Below are positions 36,066 through 42,565 of a stretch of 64,000 bases of DNA, piece after piece (within the stretch, counting starts at the first letter, position 1; each line of letters opens with the position of its first letter). Made by a program: the position numbers and the translations under genes. This DNA is from Bifidobacterium sp. WK012_4_13. Its GTDB lineage: Bacteria; Actinomycetota; Actinomycetes; Actinomycetales; Bifidobacteriaceae. The stretch lies in contig NZ_CP129683.1 in the NCBI RefSeq assembly GCF_041080835.1, forward strand, positions 2,232,001-2,296,000. The letters run 5' to 3'. Under the pieces are notes generated by a model. That model was not told the DNA's origin and ran no database searches. It worked only from the letters and a program-made list of their open reading frames with translations.

Positions 36066-36124
36066 GCCATACGGTCATCTGCCGGCCGATTTGTGCCCGG
36101 ATTCTCGTTATTGAGCTCGAGCAT

Positions 36125-36232
36125 GCAAGTTTTTGGCACTTGCTGAAGTATAAATGGCTGTTTTTGGCTTCATCCCGGTCGATTTTTCAGCGATTGCGGG
36201 CAGTTATACTTTGGCAAGTGCCAAAAACTTGC
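36125..36232. repeat. Inverted-repeat element 3 of the dispersed AAGTATAA family
   Basis: Perfect 19-bp outer arms GCAAGTTTTTGGCACTTGC (36125-36143) and complement (36214-36232). The arms are themselves partly palindromic (GCAAGT ... ACTTGC). Inner motifs are GAAGTATAAA and, mirrored, AAAGTATAAC. 108 bp, between convergent genes. Confidence 0.85.
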
Positions 36233-36255
36233 AAATTGAATCGAATGAGGCCTTT

Positions 36256-37758
36256 TCAGGCTATGACGAAGCCTCTGAGAGCGTATGCGCAGAGGCAAAT
36301 GAATATGAGCGTGAGCATATTGACGACGTTGTTGCTGGTGTATGCGATGCCGACCGCGGCGCGCTGCCGAGGATAGGCGGGGGCATCCATGAGCTGGCCG
36401 CTTTCGTCGGCGAAGCGCTGCTGAATGGTGGATCCAAGTGCACTGTCGACCAGAGTTCCTGCGAAGCCAAGCGCGCACACGAATACAAAGCCCCGGATTC
36501 CATATTGACCGGCACTTGGAATGGCGAGCAGCGCGCTGCCGGCGATTCCGGCAATCACGCCAAGCAAGGTCACGCCGCCCGATGTGCCGTTGGGAACCGG
36601 TTTGAGATTGATGAGATTCAAGACCTTGCCATGACTGAGCATGCCGATTTCCGAAGAGAATGTATCGGCGCATGCCGCGGCAAACACGCTGAAGCAGATC
36701 AACGCTCCCGTGTTCGTGCTCTGCGAGAAATGGGAGAGCCAGACAGCCACGCATGCAGGAAGCGAATTGCACAGGACCTGCTTCCAATTCCTGGCTCCGA
36801 CATCGCCCTGTCTACTTTCGCCCTTTCGCTTGGAACGGTTGCTGATCTTCGACACGAGCGATCCTGCGATGAAGAACAGTAGCAGACTGCCAGCAACCCA
36901 GATCGAAGAGAATGCATACAGCGTCGCGGCCGTCAATTCAGCGGCGACGATGCCATCGGTGGTGATTGCCGATCTGCGATATGCATAGATGAGGATGCCC
37001 AGGGCGACAAGCAGATAGATGGTCATGCCGATGGAACCATAGCGAAGCAGCAGCGATGCGAAGATGCCTGTCGAAATGGGAAGCGAGAGATTGTCGCACC
37101 CATTCGTGCCCGTCAGCTCGACGAATGCTGCGAATGCTCCGGTGACAAGAGCTATCAGAACGGATTCCAATAAGAAAATGGCCGTGGACACTGCCTCTCC
37201 GGCGTACCATGCGTTGGCCATGGTCAGTGAATCTGCATGCAATTCGGGGAATGCGAAGACGCATGCGAGCGTGGTCAGGAACGCGACGATGGCAACGCAA
37301 AGGCTGCCCTCAAGTGACTTGTCCCGTGCAAAGGCGAAGGGATGGTGCCGGCCCCAGCGTCCGCCGACAAGTGCGGCAAGACCGTCACCATAGGCCATCG
37401 TCAGCAGACCGATGAACGAAAGCTCATGCCATCCGAATTCGAAGGCGGCGGAGCTGAGCACGCACATGCTGAATGCGTAATAGACGGTTCCGAGGTTCTC
37501 GTGCTCCCTCACGATTGCAGGAAACAGATGGAACCGCGAATTCAACGCATTGATGATGATGAACAGAAAGGGAACAAGAGCCACAGCCCACAGCGATGTG
37601 AAGTATGGCGTGATGAAAACCCAGTTGCCGACCATGATATGCACGAACTTGCGTGAATACTCGCTTCTTCCGCCCTGATGGTGTGCAATAAGCGTCGCAA
37701 GCCCGATCACGAGCAGTATGTAGGCCAGTGAAATTGCCAGACTTACGATATTTTCCAT
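36256..37758 (-). CDS. Fused prenyl-alcohol kinase (VTE5/SEC59-like) - DUF92 (VTE6-like) protein
   Basis: 500 residues, all membrane. The N-terminal half (about 1-215) has the phytol/dolichol kinase and CdsA-like pattern: SRKFVHIMVGNW (about 35-46), then MAYGDGLAALVGGRWG and KSLEGSLC. The C-terminal half (about 265-500) is a DUF92 domain: ARNWKQVLCNSL, ACADTFSSEIGML, PNGTSGGVTLLG, GTLVDSALG. In plants and cyanobacteria VTE5 phosphorylates phytol and VTE6, a DUF92 protein, makes the diphosphate; here both lie in one chain. The gene is the last of an overlapping operon with a carotenoid synthase and desaturase (start overlaps the synthase stop by 16 bases). I infer conversion of a prenyl alcohol such as farnesol or geranylgeraniol to its diphosphate. 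A polyprenol kinase role in cell-wall lipid recycling is the alternative. Confidence 0.75.
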   Translation of the reverse strand: MENIVSLAISLAYILLVIGLATLIAHHQGGRSEYSRKFVHIMVGNWVFITPYFTSLWAVALVPFLFIIINALNSRFHLFPAIVREHENLGTVYYAFSMCVLSSAAFEFGWHELSFIGLLTMAYGDGLAALVGGRWGRHHPFAFARDKSLEGSLCVAIVAFLTTLACVFAFPELHADSLTMANAWYAGEAVSTAIFLLESVLIALVTGAFAAFVELTGTNGCDNLSLPISTGIFASLLLRYGSIGMTIYLLVALGILIYAYRRSAITTDGIVAAELTAATLYAFSSIWVAGSLLLFFIAGSLVSKISNRSKRKGESRQGDVGARNWKQVLCNSLPACVAVWLSHFSQSTNTGALICFSVFAAACADTFSSEIGMLSHGKVLNLINLKPVPNGTSGGVTLLGVIAGIAGSALLAIPSAGQYGIRGFVFVCALGFAGTLVDSALGSTIQQRFADESGQLMDAPAYPRQRAAVGIAYTSNNVVNMLTLIFICLCAYALRGFVIA

Positions 37759-38816
37759 GGTGCTTTCTCCCGTAGCTGTATTTCGGTGACGATGCGGATG
37801 CGTGTGGCCTTGCTGGTGTAGCAGCGCCTGGTGAAGCAGTCATGCCCGTGGTCGCGGACCGCCTGCTCGATGGCCTGATACAGCTTTGCCGCTGTGATGA
37901 GCGGGATACGGGCGGATGCGTGGAACTGATCAAGATAGTGCTGATATGGAAGGTACAGACTGTCGGCAAGCGTCGCAAGCTGTTCCCAGAGCACGATGAA
38001 GTTTCTTGGAATGGAAGGGGCATAGCCTTGCCGTGGCTCCGTGCGTTCCTTGAATGAGGCTGCGTCGGCATGGGCAAGCCCTTGCAGCGCCTCTCTCGAG
38101 ATGCCATGGCTTTTCAGCAGATCTCGGGGAATGTACACGCGGTCGCGCTCGCGGATGTCTTCGCCGACATCGCGCAGAATGTTGGTGATCTGCATCGCAA
38201 TGCCGAGTTTCTCGCACGCCTGCATGAAGTCTTCGTTCTCTATCATGGCGCGATCCCTGACCAGAATCGGCACAAGAATCCTGCCGACGGATCCGGCGAC
38301 AAGACGCGCGTATTCGATCAGGTCATCGGTGGACTCGATGTCATGAAAGTCGGCGTCGCTTCGCTGTCCCTGAATTTGCATGAGCAGGCCACGTTCCTGA
38401 ACGCCGTATCGGTGCACGCTTGCGGTGAAGGCTGGCCACCAGGGGAGTGTCGGCGCGAAAGTCGAAGGCGCGTCGCCGGCGGGGCCCGTGCCGTCCTCGA
38501 ACAATGCCCGTATCGAACGTTCCAGGTCATCGAGCTGTGGCAACGCGGAGCTGCCGCCTTCGTCGACGACATCGTCCGCATATCGGCAGAATGCGTAGAC
38601 GGCGGTGACCGCCATGAACCGTTCCTTGGGAAGCCCCTTGAACGCCTGATAGAAGCTGACGGCCTGTGTCTTCATGATTTCCAGAGCCGAGGCGAAGGAC
38701 TGCTCAAGATCGACGACATTGGTATCAGAGTGGGAAAAGTCACCAAAAGCAGGTGTTCCTAGATTTTTAGATTGACTTGCCGTCGCATCGTGACTGCCAT
38801 CTTGGCCTTCACTCAA
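37743..38816 (-). CDS. Phytoene/dehydrosqualene synthase (CrtB/CrtM-type)
   Basis: About 357 residues from TTG 38816, which follows AAAGGTG and overlaps the desaturase stop; a GTG at 38855 would add 13 residues. Both Asp-rich motifs of head-to-head prenyl synthases are present: FCRYADDVVDE (about residues 75-85) and RDVGEDIRERDRVYIP (about 220-235). It condenses two prenyl diphosphates to phytoene (C40) or dehydrosqualene (C30). The pairing with a CrtN/CrtI desaturase and the absence of a lycopene cyclase gene are compatible with a linear pigment, but chain length cannot be decided. The N-terminal 45 residues are polar and unlike homologues, supporting a later start or a lineage-specific extension. 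Confidence 0.87.
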   Translation of the reverse strand: MSEGQDGSHDATASQSKNLGTPAFGDFSHSDTNVVDLEQSFASALEIMKTQAVSFYQAFKGLPKERFMAVTAVYAFCRYADDVVDEGGSSALPQLDDLERSIRALFEDGTGPAGDAPSTFAPTLPWWPAFTASVHRYGVQERGLLMQIQGQRSDADFHDIESTDDLIEYARLVAGSVGRILVPILVRDRAMIENEDFMQACEKLGIAMQITNILRDVGEDIRERDRVYIPRDLLKSHGISREALQGLAHADAASFKERTEPRQGYAPSIPRNFIVLWEQLATLADSLYLPYQHYLDQFHASARIPLITAAKLYQAIEQAVRDHGHDCFTRRCYTSKATRIRIVTEIQLREKAPWKIS

Positions 38817-40320
38817 AGGAATCACCTTTCTCGTCGCGTCGCAGCTCTTCTGCACAAATCTTACCGCTCTGCATTACGATCGGCACTCCTGCGCCAGGAT
38901 GCGTGCTGCTTCCCGTGAAATACAAACCCTCGCAGTGCTTGGCTTTCGCCTGTGGACGCCAGTGATTGCTTTGAAGCAAGGTTGGCTGAAGGCCGAAGGT
39001 CGCCCCACGATACGCGTTGAATTCCTGCTTGAAATCCTCGGGCGTGAAAACCCGTTCAAAGACGATGCTCTCCTTCAGGTTCTCAAGTCCGGGGAGTCGG
39101 GTCAATGCCTGCAAGACCTTGTCTCTATACAGCTTCACCGTCTGTTCATTCCAGGAATATTTGGCCGTACCAAGTTCCGAGATCGGCAGAAGCGCATAGA
39201 ATGCGGACTGTCCCTGGGGAGCCATGCTTGGATCGGTCTGCGTCGGAATGTGAAGATAGATGGATGGGTGCTCAATCTCGCTTCCATCGAAGATGCTGCG
39301 CAGATTGTCGTCATATTGCGAAGAAATGACGAAGTTATGTGTCGAAAGGTGGTCGTATGTGCCCTTCACACCCCAGTAGAAAACAAGGCAGGAGCATGAA
39401 TAGTCCATACTGTCGATTTTTTTGGGTGAGTATTTTCCCCTGATCCTTGGGCTTTCGACGAGCTCTTTCATCGCATAGGGGAAGTCTGCGTTGCAAACGA
39501 CGTATGGAGACTCGATGAGCCTGTCATCGACCTGTATGCCCTGGACTCTGCCATCGGTGGCAACGATTTTCCGAACCTGGGCATTGTAATGGATCTTGCC
39601 GCCTATCTCTTCGAAGAGCCTTGCCATCTGTTCGGCCATCGTATGCATGCCGCCCTTGATGCACCAGATTCCATAGAGCAGCTCGATCATCGGAATGATG
39701 TTATAGAGCGACGGTCCATTTGTCGGAGACACGCCAATATATAAGGTCTGGAAGCTCAGCATGCGTTGCAGGTCCTTGTCGGGCATGAACTTCGCCATCA
39801 TCCTGTCAGCGCTGCCGAAGGTTTTGAGCTTCATCGCCTGGACGAGCATGTACGGATTGTATATGTCTCGTCGGTGGCGGAAGGGGCGGGTTATGAAATG
39901 CTGGTACGCGACCTGGTATCGCGTATACATTTCGCTCAGATAATCGAGGAATCCCTTGGCATTGCGAGGCCCCTTGGCTTCGACCATCCTCATCAGATCG
40001 GGAAGGTTGTTGCCAATCGTGTAATGGCGTATCGGATCGCCTTCGAAGAAGACCTCGTACATCGGGTCGAGGCGGGTCATTGGGATGTAGTCATCGGGAT
40101 CGCGGCCGCAGAGACGAAAGATGTCTTGGTATATCGAAGGCATCATCACGATGGTCGGACCGACATCGAAAGTGAACCCCTGCTCGCGGATCTGATGCAT
40201 CTTGCCACCGGGTATGCTCTGCTTTTCGTAGATTTCCACTGAATATCCGGCATGCTGCAGACGGATGGCCGCTGATAGGCCGCCAATTCCGGCCCCAACG
40301 ACCACGACTTTCTTCCCCAA
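38809..40320 (-). CDS. Phytoene/diapophytoene desaturase (CrtI/CrtN-type)
   Basis: 503 residues from ATG 40320. The N-terminal FAD-binding Rossmann motif VVVVGAGIGGLSAAIRLQ (about 5-22) is followed by YEKQSIPGGKMH. The C-terminal carotenoid-oxidoreductase signature is FTGSSTHPGAGVPIVMQSG (about 472-490). It introduces conjugated double bonds into phytoene or dehydrosqualene at the membrane. It is the first gene of the operon, and its stop overlaps the synthase start. Carotenoids would protect membranes against oxygen and light, useful for an aerotolerant bifidobacterium (inference). Confidence 0.88.
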   Translation of the reverse strand: MGKKVVVVGAGIGGLSAAIRLQHAGYSVEIYEKQSIPGGKMHQIREQGFTFDVGPTIVMMPSIYQDIFRLCGRDPDDYIPMTRLDPMYEVFFEGDPIRHYTIGNNLPDLMRMVEAKGPRNAKGFLDYLSEMYTRYQVAYQHFITRPFRHRRDIYNPYMLVQAMKLKTFGSADRMMAKFMPDKDLQRMLSFQTLYIGVSPTNGPSLYNIIPMIELLYGIWCIKGGMHTMAEQMARLFEEIGGKIHYNAQVRKIVATDGRVQGIQVDDRLIESPYVVCNADFPYAMKELVESPRIRGKYSPKKIDSMDYSCSCLVFYWGVKGTYDHLSTHNFVISSQYDDNLRSIFDGSEIEHPSIYLHIPTQTDPSMAPQGQSAFYALLPISELGTAKYSWNEQTVKLYRDKVLQALTRLPGLENLKESIVFERVFTPEDFKQEFNAYRGATFGLQPTLLQSNHWRPQAKAKHCEGLYFTGSSTHPGAGVPIVMQSGKICAEELRRDEKGDSFE

Positions 40321-40422: not shown

Positions 40423-40552
40423 AAGGTGAGATTGTGAGTTTTGCGACAATTGCAGAGTATAAACTTCAATTTTCGTTGATTTCGCGACCGAGGTCATGCG
40501 GAAAATCAGTGGCTGTACTTTGCAATTGCCGCAAAACTCACAATCTCACCTT
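40423..40552. repeat. Inverted-repeat element 4 of the dispersed AAGTATAA family
   Basis: 32-bp outer arms (40423-40454 and 40521-40552) with a single mismatch. Their core is GTGAGTTTTGCGGCAATTGC. Inner motifs are AGAGTATAAA and, mirrored, AAAGTACAG. 130 bp, between the desaturase start and the end of the leftward reductase gene. Confidence 0.85.
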
Positions 40553-40590: not shown

Positions 40591-41493
40591 CTAGAATTCT
40601 TCGTACCATTGTGGATTTTGCGCGAATGAGCGGCCTTCGGGATTGTCAAGGGCGGCTATCTGCTTCATATCGTCACCGTCGAGTGTGAAACTGGTCAGAT
40701 CGATGTTTGCGCGCTGACGTTCCGGATTCATGGACTTTGGAATCGAAACATCGCCAATCTGGACATGCCAGCGAAGAATCGTCTGAACGACTGAGATGCC
40801 GTGCTTCTTCGCGATCGCCGTCAAGGTGGTGTCCTTGAGCATCTGGTTGGCCCTGCCCAGTGGGCTCCAGGCTTCGGTGATGATTCCATGGGTGTTGTCA
40901 TAGGCGCGCTGCGCCGACTGCTGGAAATATGGATGGAGCTCAATCTGGTTGACCTCTGGAGCAACGCCGGTCGAATGGATGAGCATGTCGATATGGCCCG
41001 GAAGGAAGTTGCTCACGCCGATATGCTTCACGATGCCCTGCTTCTTCGCATCGATGAGCGCACGCCAGGCATCGGTGTACTTGCCCTTGGATGGGTTGGG
41101 CCAATGAATCAGGTACAGATCGATGTAGTCGAGGCCCATGCGGGCGACGCTTTCCTCGATCGTTACGCGTGCGGCATCGTAGTCCTGATGCCGACCAGGA
41201 AGCTTGCTCGTTACCGTAACGTCTTCACGAGGAATGTCGGACTCGCGAATCGCACGGCCGACGATGCCCTCGTTCTCATAGTTATATGCGCTGTCTATGA
41301 GTCGATACCCGACTCGCAGCGCGGACTCAATCGCACCGATTCCATCGAATCCATTGATCTTATAGGTTCCGAATCCGATCGCCGGAAGTTCGAATCCGCT
41401 GTGCGACTTTCTGACAGGAATATCGGGCGGATTGAGAATGCCCTGATTCGATGCGTCTTGTTCGCTCCTATGTTCGCTGTTCTGATCGCTCAC
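40591..41493 (-). CDS. Aldo/keto reductase (AKR, 2,5-diketo-D-gluconate reductase-like)
   Basis: 300 residues from GTG 41493, AGAGG upstream. The AKR catalytic tetrad is visible: Asp in RLIDSAYNY, Tyr in YNYENE, Lys in VTSKLPG, His in LIHWPNP. The C-terminal NADPH-binding stretch is IPKSMNPERQRANID. It belongs to the AKR5-like small-carbonyl or keto-sugar reductases. The substrate is unknown. Its first 25 residues (Ser/Glu/Asn-rich) are an extension. It is divergent from the TetR gene, 169 bases apart. Confidence 0.87.
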   Translation of the reverse strand: MSDQNSEHRSEQDASNQGILNPPDIPVRKSHSGFELPAIGFGTYKINGFDGIGAIESALRVGYRLIDSAYNYENEGIVGRAIRESDIPREDVTVTSKLPGRHQDYDAARVTIEESVARMGLDYIDLYLIHWPNPSKGKYTDAWRALIDAKKQGIVKHIGVSNFLPGHIDMLIHSTGVAPEVNQIELHPYFQQSAQRAYDNTHGIITEAWSPLGRANQMLKDTTLTAIAKKHGISVVQTILRWHVQIGDVSIPKSMNPERQRANIDLTSFTLDGDDMKQIAALDNPEGRSFAQNPQWYEEF

Positions 41494-41662: not shown

Positions 41663-42565
41663 ATGACGAAAAAACGTGGATCTTATTCCAAGGGAGTGCT
41701 TAAGCGCCAGGAAATTCTGAGTCAGGCGCTCAAGCTCATTGCGGAAAATGGCTTTGAATCAACCAAGCTTCGAGAGCTCGCAGAATCCGTCAATCTGTCT
41801 GAGGCTGGCCTTTTGCATTACTTTGGAACGAAGGACGACCTATATGTTGAAATTTTGCGCGAAAATGACAAGAACGAGCTGTATGAATTGTTCAGACTGA
41901 ACATCGAACATGGTGGTTCGGGGCCCTTCGAGTCAGAGAAGACATGCAGAAAGGCAGAATCCGGCGATAGCAAATCGGGCGATGATGACGCGGACGAGAG
42001 CGATCGTCCTGCGGGCAGCGACTCCCAAGAATCCGAATCGGAGAAGCATGCCGAAAGAGAATCATCCCGAGAAGGCAAGGCCGGGGAATTCTCGTTGAAG
42101 CTTTCCGGAAATGCCATCAAAATGATCGACGAGCGTGCCGACCTTTTGCCTGCGCAGCCACGCGAACACGTAGGCATACTGTCGCGCCTGGTACAGATCA
42201 TGGCTCATAAGGCCCAGGTGCCGGGTCTTGTCGAATTGTATTCGTACATGTCGGTTCGTGCTGCTGACAAGAACAATCCGGCACACGCGTACTTCATGGA
42301 AAGGCGCAGCATATCTTCGGCGATCTCGGTTCCCATGCTCAGACGTCTCCAGAAAAGAGGCATCGTGAGCGCCAAGCTTGCGCCGAGCGATCTCGATAGA
42401 ATCTTCAACGCCGTTACCGATGGTCTGCTGGTTCAGCGACTGATCGATCCGGATCTGGATATCGAGCGATTGCTGCTTGAGCTGTGCACGATCATCGATT
42501 GGACGCGCGACCCGAACGGCAACCCGGATATCGAGACCATCAAGAAGCAGAATCTCATGCCCTGA
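41663..42565 (+). CDS. TetR family regulator with acidic low-complexity insert
   Basis: 300 residues from ATG 41663. The DNA-binding domain is canonical (QEILSQALKLIAENGFESTKLRELA ... LLHYFGTKDDLY, about residues 14-57). Between helices of the ligand domain there is a roughly 60-residue Ser/Asp/Glu/Arg-rich stretch (about 77-135), absent from usual TetR proteins of about 200 residues. The rest (IMAHKAQVPGLVELYSYMS ... TDGLLVQRLIDPD) resembles a normal TetR C-terminal domain. Possible targets are the divergent aldo/keto reductase or the downstream glycosyltransferase genes. Confidence 0.83.
   Translation: MTKKRGSYSKGVLKRQEILSQALKLIAENGFESTKLRELAESVNLSEAGLLHYFGTKDDLYVEILRENDKNELYELFRLNIEHGGSGPFESEKTCRKAESGDSKSGDDDADESDRPAGSDSQESESEKHAERESSREGKAGEFSLKLSGNAIKMIDERADLLPAQPREHVGILSRLVQIMAHKAQVPGLVELYSYMSVRAADKNNPAHAYFMERRSISSAISVPMLRRLQKRGIVSAKLAPSDLDRIFNAVTDGLLVQRLIDPDLDIERLLLELCTIIDWTRDPNGNPDIETIKKQNLMP

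Follow-up and report, generated by a model that had tools for sequence, protein, structure and literature searches.

In plants and cyanobacteria, phytol is salvaged by two consecutive membrane kinases, VTE5 and VTE6, of which VTE6 is described as the phytyl-phosphate kinase and is linked to COG1836 (PMC9782597). According to a review and a study of the Plasmodium kinase PolK, only plants, a cyanobacterium and Plasmodium have firmly established genes for the conversion of a prenol to a prenyl diphosphate, the steps lie on separate enzymes, and the characterised prenol kinases prefer CTP (PMC9782597, PMC10849223). A second body of work concerns C30 carotenoid cassettes. According to the accessible part of one study, crtM and crtN of Eubacterium limosum give 4,4'-diaponeurosporene in Escherichia coli, and neither E. 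limosum nor two lactic bacteria carrying crtM/crtN formed any carotenoid when oxygen was strictly excluded (PMC11611032). Here we describe an operon in which the two themes meet. It lies in a 64,000-nucleotide stretch of Bifidobacterium sp. WK012_4_13 (contig NZ_CP129683.1, positions 2,232,001 to 2,296,000 of the forward strand), hereafter the window, and consists of a desaturase gene, a CrtM-like synthase gene and a gene for a 500-residue membrane protein that joins a VTE5-like half to a DUF92/VTE6-like half. The gene trio is real and recurrent, and its third product is plausibly a bifunctional prenol-salvage kinase.

The three genes overlap at their ends, as described in the first-pass annotation of the window; they run on the minus strand from 40320 to 36256 in the order desaturase, synthase, fusion (Table 1). 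The fusion and synthase genes share 16 nt, and the synthase and desaturase genes share at most 47 nt, since the real synthase start may be internal to the called GTG. The host genome (G000) measures 2.47 Mb in two contigs and is 99.57% complete. The desaturase scores 454.9 bits against crtI_fam TIGR02734 (cut-off 238.1) and the synthase 182.2 bits against PF00494 (cut-off 26). The synthase falls under the cut-offs of every named NCBIfam synthase that it matched, the best being HpnD with 138.4 of 278.6, and the solved chains nearest to it carry the names CrtM, phytoene synthase and dehydrosqualene synthase. With an SQS_PSY synthase and a crtI-family desaturase within one operon, the locus has the gene content of a C30 (crtM/crtN) cassette. 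The same two enzyme families are adjacent in Staphylococcus, Lactiplantibacillus and Eubacterium limosum, and the window's genes overlap; the window's operon differs in having one more gene, whose product would carry out the two presumed phosphorylations and to which the synthase genes of the sampled Bacilli are unlinked.

The first-pass annotation had further tied the kinase to CrtM/CrtN-type enzymes, and the tie to the synthase holds across phyla, for fused and for split genes. A genome collection gave 78 loci (handles L, with G for genomes), of which 32 have both halves (L011-L022, L024-L040, L068, L079, L086). A crt gene lies directly upstream on the same strand in 16 of the 32, although in L020 it is a crtN fragment only. 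Among 31 genomes scanned for PF00494 (G027-G057, with the partial loci L023 and L041 included and L011, L017 and L068 left out), 13 have the synthase, and it adjoins the kinase in all 13; G027 carries one further copy, of lower score, at another place in its genome. A crtI-family gene exceeds the cut-off in 12 of 35 genomes, four bifidobacteria among them. Because several genomes (G027, G048, G056, G057) hold synthase and kinase with no crtI-family gene over the cut-off, we take the constant pair to be synthase and kinase, not the desaturase; in G028 the desaturase is cut by the contig end. Two Mollicutes metagenome-assembled genomes (L079, L086) carry crtM followed by two separate half genes, each junction being a 4-nt overlap, ATGA or GTGA. 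Linkage to the synthase, fused or split, was thus found in Actinomycetota, Clostridia, an Erysipelotrichaceae metagenome-assembled genome and Mollicutes metagenome-assembled genomes.

Broader samples bear this out. Within 391 Clostridia genomes, including the centre genome G031, PF00494 exceeds its cut-off in six (G031, G121, G221, G353, G404, G442), and a G367 match stays under it. Both kinase halves adjoin the synthase in all six, fused in G031 and as tandem unfused genes directly behind crtM in the other five; the desaturase gene is divergent in G121 and G221, in the latter behind transposase-like genes. With G031 excluded, both halves occur in 5/5 synthase-positive and 3/385 other Clostridia (Fisher p 7.6e-10, a value that is too optimistic because the five genomes fall in about three tree lineages). 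The three others are G278, G108 and G319; G265 has the first half only, and any kinase-model match occurs in 31 of the 391, the further ones being weak or first-half-only. The G442 synthase is identical to a protein cluster named Eubacterium callanderi, presumably the sister species of E. limosum, and its tie to the E. limosum genes is by species name, not by accession. Among 396 Actinomycetota genomes, 40 gave any match and five hold full fusions (G000, G887, G1016, G1091, G1109), all in crtN-crtM-fusion order, a count made per fusion and not per synthase. The last four belong to one family other than that of G000, and PF00494 was confirmed for two of them. Four of 27 congeners have the fusion, the same four have the synthase, and the genes are adjacent. 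We regard the synthase-kinase linkage as real.

The fusion itself is widespread. Out of 5.8 billion proteins searched, 8000 candidates were scored, and 174 proved to be relatives at E <= 1e-5. Seven of the best 120, which were listed, share 65-100% identity with the window protein and the others 38-53%, mostly at full length, with Catonella, Tissierella and Treponema among the named organisms; the fusions of Bifidobacterium aquikefiri and B. aquikefiricola are 80-81% identical to it. A system peculiar to Bifidobacterium was rejected on these grounds, the relatives at 38-53% identity filling most of the listed matches. Two further candidates were set aside. The 781-799-codon frames of the actinobacterial family f27 looked like a crtM-kinase-kinase triple fusion, and the synthase proved to lie in another frame. 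Membrane-protein-like genes of 444-454 codons in G410, G200 and G141 (L143, L144, L145, L179), with counterparts in three Bacilli genomes, have weak first-half scores and were not counted as fusions; the 448-codon gene of G410, the only copy scanned, matched neither DUF92 nor any other Pfam family.

Both halves of the protein had been predicted, one kinase-like and one DUF92. The DUF92 half is firm, with 182.4 bits against PF01940 (cut-off 27.5) over residues 251-486 and matches to the same family in 90/90 aligned fusions; it scores 103.5 bits against TIGR00297, one DUF92 branch, which is under that model's cut-off of 205.85. The D, T, S369, E and G of its DT..SE.G motif are invariant across alignments, and D, T, S, E, G and two Gly of a G.SGG-type motif are invariant over 11 diverse DUF92 rows including Prochlorococcus and archaea. 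The assignment of the first half as a prenol-kinase-like domain is supported indirectly, by its clamp motif and predicted helix topology. Arg36, Lys37 and His40 are invariant in 90/90 aligned fusions and 47/47 first-half rows, and the full set of first-half invariants is E33, R36, K37, H40, D125, G126, G132, E214, D222 and N223. The first half is predicted to form eight helices (model pLDDT 89.8), within an AlphaFold2 model of the whole fusion with mean pLDDT 92.4 and pTM 0.91. PF01148 (CTP_transf_1), to which Sec59 presumably belongs, is matched by 6/90 aligned fusions, at best with 2e-6, and by 0/28 first-half rows. The fusion profile matched no sequence of a solved structure up to E 1. Comparison of the two half profiles with hhalign (probability 85, E 6.2e-6, 142 columns) is suggestive of common ancestry and is not used here as proof. 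The fold of the first half resembles that of a giant-virus (Yasminevirus) protein, BFVD A0A5K0U9N6 (Foldseek E 3.1e-4, TM 0.59-0.66).

Table 1 Features of the operon and its neighbourhood in the window.
Feature	Position	Strand	Length or basis
CrtI/CrtN-family desaturase	38809..40320	-	503 aa; crtI_fam TIGR02734
Squalene/phytoene-synthase family enzyme, CrtM-like	37743..38855	-	370 aa, GTG start; PF00494
Membrane protein with fused VTE5-like and DUF92/VTE6-like halves	36256..37758	-	500 aa
First half, residues 1-240, prenol-kinase-like domain (putative)	37039..37758	-	Invariant residues, eight-helix model
Arg36-Lys37-x-x-His40 clamp	37639..37653	-	Alignment invariance
Second half, residues 251-486, DUF92	36301..37008	-	PF01940
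D365-T-F-S-S-E-I-G372 motif of the DUF92 half	36643..36666	-	Alignment invariance
Aldo/keto reductase upstream of the operon	40591..41493	-	PF00248
TetR-type regulator, divergent	41663..42565	+	PF00440

Fused VTE5-VTE6 sequences may be mentioned in vom Dorp 2015. We found no paper joining DUF92/VTE6-like genes to carotenoid operons, in a search that reached little of the subscription literature. Like the VTE5 and VTE6 pair, the window protein appears to comprise two consecutive membrane kinases, its DUF92 half belonging to the VTE6 family and its first half bearing the prenol-kinase clamp. Unlike that pair it is a single polypeptide, and its gene neighbours one for a C30-type synthase, where VTE5 and VTE6 serve tocopherol. 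The first half is also similar to the Plasmodium farnesol/geranylgeraniol kinase PfPolK, whose clamp residues Arg29, Lys30 and His33 are reported with the spacing seen here in Arg36, Lys37 and His40 (PMC10849223). Eight helices and the Arg-Lys-x-x-His motif are common to both, and CTP use would be expected; PolK and Arabidopsis FOLK differ in being described as monophosphate makers, eukaryotic and without a fused second kinase.

We therefore propose a bifunctional prenol-salvage enzyme that feeds a C30 synthase, a reading that we hold with even confidence for and against. The first half would convert a membrane-dissolved prenyl alcohol to its monophosphate, and the DUF92 half would add the second phosphate, with CTP as the probable donor in each step. 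Most likely this gives farnesyl diphosphate (FPP), of which the co-translated CrtM-like synthase would join two C15 units into a C30 backbone, and from this the desaturase would yield a coloured C30 carotenoid. The role may be one of topping up or recapturing precursor, such as external prenols or farnesol that is lost through phosphatases, and not of replacing de novo synthesis. We infer the two kinase activities, the use of CTP, the C15 substrate and the flux into carotenoid, and with them the salvage route from prenyl alcohol to carotenoid. A wider and more tentative proposal, which we think somewhat less likely to be right, is that a hard-wired module, leading from free farnesol through FPP to an adjacent C30 synthase, is present in many anaerobes and in some actinobacteria as one protein or a tandem pair, which would turn scavenged or recaptured prenol into carotenoid or dehydrosqualene and would supply the missing bacterial prenol-salvage enzymes. 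The fusion is a compact bacterial candidate for both salvage steps in one polypeptide, with the synthase partner pointing to the likely end use. If it acts as proposed, the unassigned gene pair that lies by crtM/crtN in genomes of Eubacterium, Lachnospiraceae and actinobacteria would gain a function, and isoprenoid production from fed farnesol would gain a ready part. The split versions allow each phosphorylation step to be assayed alone.

Several observations weigh against the proposed feeding of a C30 synthase by salvage. To our knowledge, no activity is known for any bacterial fusion of this type. The first half of the window protein has no Pfam match of its own, and Foldseek returned nothing from the PDB at E <= 0.001 for the whole model or the first half. 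The lack of a prenyl synthase in the operon, which the first-pass annotation had used as an argument, carries little weight, as PF00348 genes occur in 27/27 congeners with or without the operon, usually two per genome. G000 has two, located elsewhere than the operon, and in G016 one lies inside the crt cluster (L121:7373-8476), about 0.9 kb upstream of crtN. With prenyl synthases elsewhere in the genome, salvage would supplement de novo synthesis rather than replace it. As for the supply of isopentenyl diphosphate, ispH (PF02401) was not found in G000, in a search that covered ispH alone and was positive in 10/14 control genomes. In the available text, the E. limosum genes worked in E. coli from plasmids with no kinase gene named, an IDI gene having been added and crtN paired with crtM of L. 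plantarum (PMC11611032), which suggests that cells supplied with FPP can do without the kinases. Colonies of B. aquikefiricola are described as white, the growth atmosphere being unstated in the part of the report available (PMC11500810), but E. limosum and the two lactic bacteria named above likewise lacked carotenoid in anaerobic culture (PMC11611032).

The same can be said of the distribution. The first-pass annotation had named fusions without carotenoid genes, in advance, as evidence against itself, and these were found in part: 16/32 two-half loci have no crt neighbour (L015, L027 and L068 have less than 1 kb of upstream sequence), and 18/31 kinase-bearing genomes have no PF00494. Of 299 Bacilli genomes, 149 have the synthase and 128 some kinase-model match, mostly DUF92 alone; among the matches listed, G053 (fused) and G589 (tandem) are the sole genomes where the halves stand together, in neither case by crt, and in the other Bacilli with both halves, these and the synthase are, by eye, far apart. 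The 16 loci with no crt neighbour count in favour of a general recycler, which would salvage prenols or polyprenols for all uses, undecaprenyl or quinone chains included, and simply travel with crt in some lineages. The existence of a ten-member crt-less clade, four members of which lie behind ispH, and of a free first-half gene next to murB in one of the Bacilli (L232) agrees with general recycling, the latter suggesting that the family has broader functions with polyprenols. We nevertheless consider it unlikely, since every over-cut-off synthase in the sampled Clostridia has the kinase halves adjacent, every fusion in the sampled Actinomycetota has the synthase adjacent, and the genes stay linked whether the kinase is fused or split. 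A kinase that simply travelled along would be expected to part from the synthase more often.

The alcohol might instead be geranylgeraniol or environmental phytol, giving geranylgeranyl diphosphate (GGPP) or phytyl diphosphate and a C40 or mixed product. The synthase has Thr at the position of CrtM Trp38, which we take to be relevant to specificity, and this counts against a C15 substrate; the extra prenyl synthase in the G016 cluster points the same way. So does G353, where a tocopherol-cyclase-family gene (PF14249, 58 bits; L174:7791-8768) lies behind crtN-crtM and the tandem kinase pair, bringing three VTE-like genes together. VTE5 and VTE6 are, in addition, reported to accept geranylgeraniol and its phosphate (PMC13415981, as far as available). 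The position of CrtM Phe26 is Phe in 14/14 aligned synthases, however, and replacement of this residue is what is reported to let CrtM take GGPP (PMC13304436). Because Phe26 is kept throughout and the Eubacterium cassette, of the same type, is biochemically C30 (PMC11611032), a C15 substrate is favoured, and we think the longer alcohols quite improbable. Less probable still is that the protein is no kinase and makes a CDP-lipid or other activated lipid, using chemistry like that of CdsA or CarS, with modification or anchoring of the pigment as one conceivable purpose. The DUF92 half is weakly similar in structure to the CdsA/CarS CTP-transferase fold, at noise level, and a different reaction would be expected of it.

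The history of the family was read from a midpoint-rooted tree of 38 rows, some on long branches. The bifidobacterial fusions fall within a 14-member clade (support 95/97) that has 13 members labelled crt and, apart from the bifidobacteria, consists of Bacillota; the split crtM-linked pairs branch outside it. The tree suggests an old crtM linkage, a later fusion of the kinase genes and acquisition of the cassette by bifidobacteria. Ten of the 16 crt-less loci form one clade (support 100/99); in the four of them with ispH ahead of the fusion (L026, L028, L033, L038), three also have miaA. Free first-half genes precede dxs in 3/33 first-half-only loci (L044, L052, L072) and in G265 (L177), whose gene gave a sub-threshold SpoIIM match as its sole Pfam-type signal. 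These isoprenoid neighbours of crt-less family members, ispH and dxs, also count in favour of the proposed salvage role. In Bacilli, free first-half genes lie beside DUF1836 genes (L232:6310-6960, which precedes murB, and L233:6721-7368). The kinase fusion or pair of G108 and G319 (L173, L178) forms a divergent branch near M50-type peptidase and DUF5685 genes, with no crt.

Around the operon, whose base composition is ordinary (0.53-0.58, against 0.55), the aldo/keto reductase is probably a separate transcription unit; by synteny of open reading frames, it also adjoins the cluster in G005 and G006. The divergent TetR-type gene is a possible regulator of the operon. In G016, the intact crtN is separated from the prenyl synthase gene by an antisense remnant of a second crtN (L121:8435-8845). 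Long, near-perfect hairpins occupy both operon flanks, at 36124-36233 and 40423-40552, with arms of 33 nt (91% complementary) and 52 nt (83% complementary) and RNA fold z of -6.3 and -11.8. The hairpin at 36124-36233 looks inserted, because the fusion and amylase gene ends are only ~30-40 bp apart in G005 and G006. Both hairpins have AGTATA close to the inner stem end, a similar one occurs at L123:7631-7735, and they are possibly a family of palindromic mobile elements.

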